Positions 58,844-60,716 of a DNA stretch of 64,000 nucleotides are shown one piece after another. The notes beneath the pieces were generated by a model, which worked only from the letters and a program-made list of their open reading frames with translations, ran no database searches and was not told where the DNA came from. Where the stretch lies: contig NZ_OY762656.1 in NCBI RefSeq assembly GCF_963666255.1, forward strand, positions 868,001 through 932,000, given 5' to 3'. Positions within the stretch are counted from its first letter, which is position 1; every line of letters starts with the position of its first letter. The stretch is from an uncultured Propionivibrio sp. GTDB taxonomy: Bacteria; Pseudomonadota; Gammaproteobacteria; Burkholderiales; Rhodocyclaceae. Both the position numbers and the translations under genes were made by a program.

Positions 58844-58956
58844 AGCATGACTCCTGAAGTGAATAAGACGGAAAAAGCTGTGCATCCCTCGCAAAACGGG
58901 ATACCGGCCCGTTCTTTTCCCTTGTTCGATGGCCGGCACCTTGCATCCGGTCTGTT

Positions 58957-58972
58957 TGCAATACCCATGCCA
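58957..58972 (-). promoter_or_regulatory. Sigma-54 (-24/-12) promoter of the exported flavoprotein
   Basis: On the minus strand TGGCATGGGTATTGCA matches the consensus TGGCACGNNNNTTGCW at 10 or 11 of its defined positions, with the GG and GC doublets exactly 10 nt apart. Predicted transcription start is near 58946, about 100 nt before the flavoprotein ATG. The neighbouring gene encodes a sigma-54 activator. Confidence 0.8.
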
Positions 58973-59079
58973 AGAACATGGAATAAGTCATGCCATTGAT
59001 TTTTCGATTTGTTTTATAGAAACCAGTGTTATCAAAATTTCCCATCCGACATAATCCGCCGTATTTGCCAGATCGACTA

Positions 59080-59099
59080 TCGTATTGGATAGAATACGA
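59080..59099. promoter_or_regulatory. Inverted repeat, candidate activator (enhancer) site
   Basis: The arms TCGTATT and AATACGA (7 bp, 6-nt spacer) are perfect. The site is about 110-140 bp upstream of the predicted start from the sigma-54 promoter, a usual enhancer distance, and 28 bp before the activator gene, so it could also give autoregulation. A further CGTATT half-site occurs at 59060-59065. Confidence 0.55.
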
Positions 59100-59126
59100 G
59101 CGTAACTATCGCCAACGACAGTTCCA

Positions 59127-60716
59127 ATGAACGACCTCGACCCGGCCTTCTACCGCAGCGTCACCACCGCCATTTGCAGTTCGAGCGAAATCGGCATCGC
59201 CTTGCATCGCGCCCTGCTGGCCTTGCGCGAGCGGATGCCGATCGACCTGATGATCATCTGGGTGTATGACGACGCCCAATCCGGCCTGCGTAAAATCGCC
59301 ATGGCTTCCGAGGACGGCGGACACGACAGCAACGAACTCATGCGCCTGAATCCGGCGACGCGGGCGAAGCTGTTGCGCATGGACATTCCCCACACCGTCA
59401 TCGAACGTACCGGCCTTAACCCGGTCGTCATGCGCATCGTGAACCACCCGGATGCCGACCCGGTTGCGCGCAGCATGAAAAAATACTTCATGCCACAGGA
59501 TTATTCGTCGATGGTCATGTATCTCGACAGCGACGGCAAACGCATCGGCACGCTCTTTGTCCGCGCCGAAGGGACGCAACGCTACGAGGCAGCGCATGCG
59601 CAACTGCTCGCGCAGTTTCTCGAGCCTTTCACGCTGGCGGCTGCCAATGCCCTGCACCGCGAAGAAATGATCAAGCACCGCAACGCGCTGGCGGGAGACC
59701 AGGCACATGCCCGGCAGAGCGCCGGCAACCCGTCCGGCGATCGCATCATCGGCAGCGAATACGGCCTGAAAAACGTCATCGACATGGCGCGACAGGTGGC
59801 GACGATGACAAGCCCGGTGCTGCTGCGCGGCGAGACCGGCACCGGCAAGGACATGATCGCCACCGCCATCCACCGCCTGTCGGCCTTCCGTGACGGCCCC
59901 TTCGTCAAGGTCAATTGCGGTGCCATCCCCGAAGCGTTGATCGATGCCGAACTCTTCGGCCACGAAAAGGGCGCGTTTACCGGCGCCTTCTATCAGAAGC
60001 TCGGCTTTTTTGAACGCGCCGACAAGGGCACCATCTTCCTCGACGAAATCGGCGAACTGCCGCCGCCGGTGCAAGTCCGCCTGCTGCGCGTGCTGCAGTT
60101 CAAGGAAATCCAGCGCGTCGGCGGCAGCGACCCGATCCGCGTCAATATCCGTGTCATCGCGGCGACGCACCGTGACCTCGAGCAGATGGTCGCGGCGAAG
60201 GAGTTTCGCGAAGATCTGTGGTTCCGCCTCAACGTCTTCCCGATCTTCATTCCCCCGCTGCGCCAGCGCAAGGAAGACATCCCCGAACTCGTCAGCCACA
60301 TGGCGACGAAGAAGAGCCGCGAACTCAACCTGCCCGGCACGCCGCTGATCGCCTCGTCAGCGATCAAGCGCCTGGCCGAATACGATTGGCCCGGCAACGT
60401 CCGCGAACTCGAGAACATCATCGAACGGGCGCTGATACTCTCCCGCGGCAAGACGATCGGCGTCGACACCCTCTTCCCCGGCGACACTCTACGAGCGGCC
60501 GCCCCACAACCGGCCACCGACACGATCCTGCCGCTCGACAGCATGCTACGCGAGTACATTCTCGGCGCGCTCGACCAGTGCGGTGGCAAGGTTCAAGGAC
60601 GCGGCGGCGCAGCCGAAGCCCTGGACATGAACCCCAGCACCTTGCGCAACCTGATGAAACGCCTCGCCATTCCCTACGGTCGCAAGGCCGGCAACGAGTT
60701 CCGGCGCACGTCCTGA
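59127..60716 (+). CDS. Sigma-54-dependent transcriptional activator (GAF-AAA-Fis)
   Basis: A 529-residue activator. Residues about 15-180 form a GAF-like sensor domain, with no phospho-receiver. The AAA+ domain has Walker A GETGTGKD (235-242), the sigma-54 contact loop GAFTGA (282-287), Walker [11 protein letters not shown] (301-310) and the arginine-finger region [10 protein letters not shown]. The C-terminal Fis helix-turn-helix ([20 protein letters not shown]) binds DNA. It probably senses a small molecule and activates the divergent flavoprotein promoter. No strong ribosome-binding site precedes the ATG. Confidence 0.94.

Follow-up and report, generated by a model that had tools for sequence, protein, structure and literature searches.

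Two questions are raised by a pair of adjoining, divergently oriented genes in the genome of an uncultured Propionivibrio sp.: how the expression of a predicted exported flavoprotein is controlled and which compound this enzyme may reduce. The pair lies in a 64-kb stretch of a 3.99-Mb genome (the window, hereafter). The initial annotation had described a flavoprotein gene transcribed away from a sigma-54 activator gene, and this arrangement was borne out; the flavoprotein gene (57356-58843, minus strand) and the activator gene (59127-60716, plus strand) flank a 283-bp intergenic region (58844-59126). The features of the locus are as follows:

57356-58843, minus strand: gene of a 495-aa FAD-binding, VprA-like flavoprotein, in which a signal peptide (by eye) precedes FAD_binding_2
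58843, minus strand: ATG of the flavoprotein gene, with AGGAGT upstream (by eye)
58844-58946, minus strand: predicted untranslated leader of ~103 nt, its start site near 58946 being placed from the -12 box
58957-58972, minus strand: sigma-54 -24/-12 promoter, TGGCATGGGTATTGCA, with GG-N10-GC spacing, in a 17-bp block (58956-58972) that is invariant in Propionivibrio dicarboxylicus
59060-59072, no strand assigned: conserved block, CGTATTTGCCAGA, with 12 of 13 positions kept in P. dicarboxylicus
59080-59099, no strand assigned: perfect palindrome, TCGTATT-GGATAG-AATACGA, a putative upstream activator sequence overlapping a possible -10 box (TAGAAT) of the activator gene
59127-60716, plus strand: gene of a 529-aa one-component sigma-54 activator with a sensor region, an AAA+ domain with GAFTGA, and a putative Fis-type helix-turn-helix (HTH)

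As argued below, the flavoprotein gene is probably under a one-component sigma-54 switch of an ordinary kind.

The activator has the AAA+ sigma-54 interaction domain of enhancer-binding proteins (PF00158; E = 9.4e-68), with GAFTGA present in the translation. A putative C-terminal Fis-type HTH (HTH_8, PF02954) matched at E = 6.6e-4 and 19.8 bits, just under the cut-off of 22, and the same domain scored 21.2 bits in a full-length homologue (45% identity) encoded on a Vibrio plasmid. There, a GG-N10-GC site (TTGGCACATCTTCTGCAA) faces the divergent neighbor of the homologue; no flavoprotein of the window's kind was present among the annotated genes around it. Of the GAF domain reported in the initial annotation, a weak match to GAF_2 (PF13185) stood at the N-terminus of the activator, at E = 0.021 and 15.5 bits and thus below the cut-off of 28.6, so that the label is no more than plausible. 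The small-molecule signal deduced from this domain in the initial annotation, and its equation with the substrate of the flavoprotein, are hypotheses. A GAF sensor domain is optional in the sigma-54 enhancer-binding protein family. The NifA model aligns to the activator from residue 18, a domain search gave no match at the N-terminus of the Vibrio homologue, and the best match of the sensor region among solved structures had an E-value of 1.3. A fold prediction for the activator, made from a two-row alignment, was discarded (mean pLDDT, 36.5). RpoN is encoded in the same genome. A search with the activator also gave 17 other matches there, none starting before query residue 137, which indicates that additional sigma-54 activators exist in this genome.

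The putative promoter, TGGCATGGGTATTGCA, has the GG-N10-GC spacing and agrees with the consensus TGGCACG-N4-TTGCW at 11 of 12 positions (the single deviation is T for C), in keeping with its earlier description as near consensus. The genome contains 20 matches (9 + 11) to YTGGCACGRNNNTTGCW with at most one mismatch, compared with 23 (11 + 12) for a reversed-pattern control, i.e., there is no genome-wide enrichment; the 20 matches correspond arithmetically to ~0.0014 sites expected per 283 bp on both strands. A looser pattern allowing two mismatches occurs 91 times in the window (75.7 expected). The inverted repeat was likewise confirmed as perfect, with 7-bp arms (TCGTATT-N6-AATACGA). At least one repeat with 7-bp arms and a 0- to 10-nt loop arose in 713 of 5,000 shuffles of the 283-bp region, and the window holds 135 such repeats, or about 0.60 per 283 bp. 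The core CGTATT-N6-AATACG occurs once in the 3.99-Mb genome at zero mismatches, a uniqueness that would fit a single-target regulator, and 69 times with up to two mismatches (62 for the control). Neither the promoter motif nor the palindrome is above chance taken singly.

The conserved block CGTATTTGCCAGA, 21 bp from the left arm of the palindrome, is similar to the palindrome's left half. It also contains TTGCCA, a -35-like hexamer separated by 19 bp from the TAGAAT within the palindrome; the promoter scan did not pick up this pair, whose spacer is long. The block may thus be a second half-site and/or the -35 element of the activator gene. No convincing IHF site was seen by eye in the control region. 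A terminator-like match at 58895-58913 was ignored (2 such matches in the region versus 3.7 expected). A plus-strand sigma-54-like match with two mismatches (58930-58944) was dropped because its GG-N10-GC is absent, by eye, in P. dicarboxylicus. A 12-bp block, CCGGCACCTTGC (58933-58944), which would lie early in the predicted flavoprotein leader, is kept in that species.

What makes both motifs convincing is their conservation in the otherwise diverged DNA of P. dicarboxylicus DSM 5885, the closest named relative found (over a tested stretch of 3.4 kb, its sequence is the same as that of G547, a member of the genus). The activators of the two species share 95% identity and the flavoproteins 99%, and four-fold sites are identical at 203 of 263 positions in the activator gene, 218 of 261 in the flavoprotein gene, and 154 of 202 in the neighboring dehydrogenase gene (76 to 84%). 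The spacer between the promoter and the half-site is identical at 44 of 87 columns. The promoter block, in contrast, is kept at 17 of 17 positions and the palindrome core at 18 of 18, and the outermost pair of the palindrome, T..A in the window, is C..G in P. dicarboxylicus, a symmetric change through which the palindrome's symmetry is kept. Leaving aside the 27 bp directly upstream of the flavoprotein gene, no identical runs are longer than those formed by the palindrome core (18 bp) and by the promoter (17 bp). In 100,000 column shuffles, a longest run of at least 18 bp appeared at a frequency of 0.033, which is only moderately unusual alone, and a second run of at least 17 bp appeared at a frequency of 0.00068. 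In both species, 131.5 bp separate the center of the palindrome from the G of the -12 box, and 37.5 bp separate it from the ATG of the activator gene. Conservation of promoter and repeat, which had been set as a test of the initial annotation, was thus found in the single orthologous locus available; since the pair was found in two genomes only, this amounts to one pairwise comparison.

The position of the palindrome would also suit a simple operator, serving for autorepression by the activator or for another regulator, with the sigma-54 promoter being driven from elsewhere or by a different activator. The palindrome indeed stands at a fixed 37.5 bp before the activator ATG and overlaps the -10-like box, and the 17 further matches show that other sigma-54 activators are at hand. 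However, its distance to the promoter is equally fixed despite the diverged spacer, and this distance fits the usual position of enhancers, about 130 to 140 bp upstream; we consider the operator-only explanation unlikely. It is far less probable still that the -24/-12 match is fortuitous and that the flavoprotein gene is transcribed from another promoter. The motif at no more than one mismatch is no commoner in the genome than its control, as such an accident would have it, but hardly any site is expected by chance in a region of this size, and the one observed has the strand and the spacing suited to a promoter of the flavoprotein gene and lies next to a sigma-54 activator gene. It is, moreover, invariant in diverged DNA, and a consensus scan restricted to 16- to 18-bp spacers detected no sigma-70-type site in 58844-59126.

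Under the preferred one-component switch, a sigma-70-type promoter overlapping the palindrome would supply small amounts of the activator, whose dimer would bind the palindrome (59080-59099) through the Fis-type HTH, with the half-site 59060-59072 assisting. Once a signal reaches the N-terminal sensor, oligomerization of the AAA+ domain would follow, DNA looping would carry the activator over ~130 bp to the sigma-54 polymerase waiting at 58957-58972, and the GAFTGA loop would open the promoter so that the exported flavoprotein is made. Because the palindrome covers the -10-like box of the activator gene, autoregulation is possible as well: the bound activator may block its own -10 box and thereby limit its own synthesis.

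The second question concerns the enzyme. The earlier claim of an exported flavoprotein agrees with a Sec-like signal peptide recognized by eye at the N-terminus, from which export is predicted; it is followed by a dinucleotide-binding fold (Pfam FAD_binding_2; E = 9.2e-61). A Pfam search detected no FMN-binding, heme, or cytochrome domain. The best NCBIfam model is that of the vinylphenol reductase VprA (NF053717), which is also the top model for two of the flavoprotein's homologues; the score of 394.7 bits is under the equivalog cut-off of 600. A fold prediction for the flavoprotein, again from a two-row alignment, was discarded (mean pLDDT, 30.6).

The family annotation would suggest a periplasmic fumarate-type (C4-dicarboxylate) reductase, and among solved homologues the top matches are indeed to flavocytochrome c fumarate reductases (lowest E-value, 5.2e-40), followed by urocanate reductase (E = 1.4e-35). 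Against this, the flavoprotein scores 226.4 bits against the flavocytochrome c model (TIGR01813), under the subfamily cut-off of 285.45 and far below its score for VprA, and it has no Arg or His at the positions aligned with the FDDSIR arginine, the HHTMGG histidines, and the ANRLGG arginine of the solved fumarate reductases, which we take to be their substrate-binding and catalytic residues. Where the solved enzymes have the ANRLGG arginine, GMYGD[ST]YDLL is invariant in the five aligned members of the flavoprotein's own group. A fumarate-type activity is accordingly judged quite improbable. We propose instead a periplasmic enzyme that reduces an unsaturated organic acceptor and would be fed by quinol via a carrier encoded elsewhere; the acceptor could be aromatic, of the phenylpropanoid or vinylphenol type, and not fumarate, a tentative suggestion to which we give a real but less than even chance.

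Among 399 genomes of the order, five gave matches to the flavoprotein at 1e-70, i.e., the window's own and four from family f102, three of which have a homologue of 57 to 63% identity and the fourth one of 39%. Among 398 genomes of the phylum, four gave matches at 1e-45, namely, the window's own, two from family f18 (49 to 50% identity), and one at 32% identity; a plasmid search with the flavoprotein gave no match at 1e-60. In two f102 loci (L061 and L062), a gene for a Crp-type regulator adjoins that of the homologue. In the f18 locus L043 (5857-13729), the homologue (48% identity) has in its vicinity a divergent LysR regulator gene and genes for NrfD, an NrfC-like 4Fe-4S protein, and a hydrolase of the BD-FAE family, which together form a candidate phenolic-acid respiration cluster. 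Such neighbors suggest that compounds freed from plant phenolic esters are reduced there with quinol as the electron source and, by extension, hint that the window's flavoprotein may reduce plant phenolics in respiration. The open reading frames listed for 50000-64000 showed no NrfCD-like partner beside the window's flavoprotein. In the 400 bp upstream of four homologues (L043, L060, L061, and L062), the best sigma-54 site matched 8 or 9 of 12 positions, compared with 11 of 12 in the window; as far as seen, sigma-54 control is therefore a trait of the lineage and not of the enzyme family. The four f102 genomes (G699, G733, G788, and G867; 2.2 to 2.9 Mb) contained 47 to 78 loose flavoprotein candidates each, of which 3 per genome were scored; reductases of this kind may thus form large families. 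Beside the module in the window, at 49730-56148, lies a likely glucarate-type catabolic cluster (named by eye from translated open reading frames), with genes for a tripartite tricarboxylate receptor, glycerate kinase, tartronate semialdehyde reductase, an HpcH/HpaI aldolase, a dehydratase, and a GntR regulator.

The pair itself has a narrow distribution. By best E-value, the full-length activator is present in 2 of 28 genomes of the genus (E = 0 for these two; 9.1e-90 or weaker for the other 26). In 150 genomes drawn from the family (a draw that did not contain G547), only the window's own genome matched with either protein, and at E ≤ 1e-5 the activator's sensor region matched only its own genome among 399 of the order. 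A scan of genome contigs for the activator confirmed one locus among 48 stretches matching the peptide pattern. The neighboring cytochrome c gene, by comparison, was found in 16 of the 28 genus genomes. In the window (57271-60865) and in P. dicarboxylicus, the pair occupies the spot between mutY and this cytochrome c gene (compared with loci L075 to L080). All six other congeneric loci examined, out of 14 others with the cytochrome, have the mutY and cytochrome flanks without the pair and carry a flavin-reductase-like gene instead; this gene had no match within the window or the compared P. dicarboxylicus stretch. The pair and its control region thus look like a cassette that either one branch acquired or the others lost and replaced, and the presence of the whole unit where these loci have the flavin-reductase-like gene agrees with its earlier description as a self-contained module. 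The base compositions (0.61 and 0.63, versus 0.62 for the window) give no sign of a foreign origin. A more specific scenario, which we regard as rather doubtful though worth stating, is that of a transplantable sigma-54-controlled respiratory cassette, which would have replaced the flavin-reductase gene at this fixed spot in one Propionivibrio branch and in which the activator would directly sense a plant-derived phenylpropanoid or vinylphenol-type compound that is also the acceptor of the periplasmic flavoprotein.

The locus would represent a small, probably acceptor-responsive switch for a clade of exported flavoprotein reductases. It adds little to the mechanism of sigma-54 regulation; its value lies in the activator and its predicted site, which offer a route via inducers to a substrate that is hard to deduce from the enzyme sequence alone. 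Among the matches listed in open-licence PubMed Central, no title dealt with this flavoprotein/activator pair, which is weak evidence of absence. The view that no named system has this arrangement was not supported: several one-component activators of Desulfovibrio are described as having a conserved site upstream of the -24/-12 promoter of a neighboring operon (PMC4641369), and the arrangement is standard among such activators. Like that Desulfovibrio vulgaris set and FhlA/NorR/NifA-type regulators, the window's activator combines an AAA+ domain with GAFTGA, a putative Fis-type HTH, a conserved upstream site, and an adjoining predicted target; unlike them, it has a sensor region confined to its own genome in the order-wide search and a VprA-like flavoprotein as its predicted target. 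VprA of Lactiplantibacillus plantarum has a dedicated regulator gene next to it, that of the LysR-type VprR (PMC10295242). The window's locus resembles this system in its best family model and in having its own adjoining regulator gene, and it differs in the score under the VprA cut-off, perhaps in the signal peptide, and in a regulator of the sigma-54 rather than the LysR type. The methacrylate reductase Mrd/Mcc of Geobacter sulfurreducens AM-1 pairs a Tat signal on Mrd with an operon that includes a tetraheme cytochrome (PMC4427408). Both Mrd and the window's protein, whose export is predicted, would be exported FAD flavoprotein reductases that lack heme-binding sites themselves, whereas the signal of the latter is Sec-like (by eye) and no tetraheme gene was seen next to its gene. 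Flavocytochrome c fumarate reductases and UrdA have an FAD_binding_2-type domain in common with the flavoprotein, which in contrast carries no heme or FMN domain and has not kept the flavocytochrome catalytic Arg/His/Arg. Set against these systems, the locus is a well-known type of genetic switch on a little-studied enzyme.
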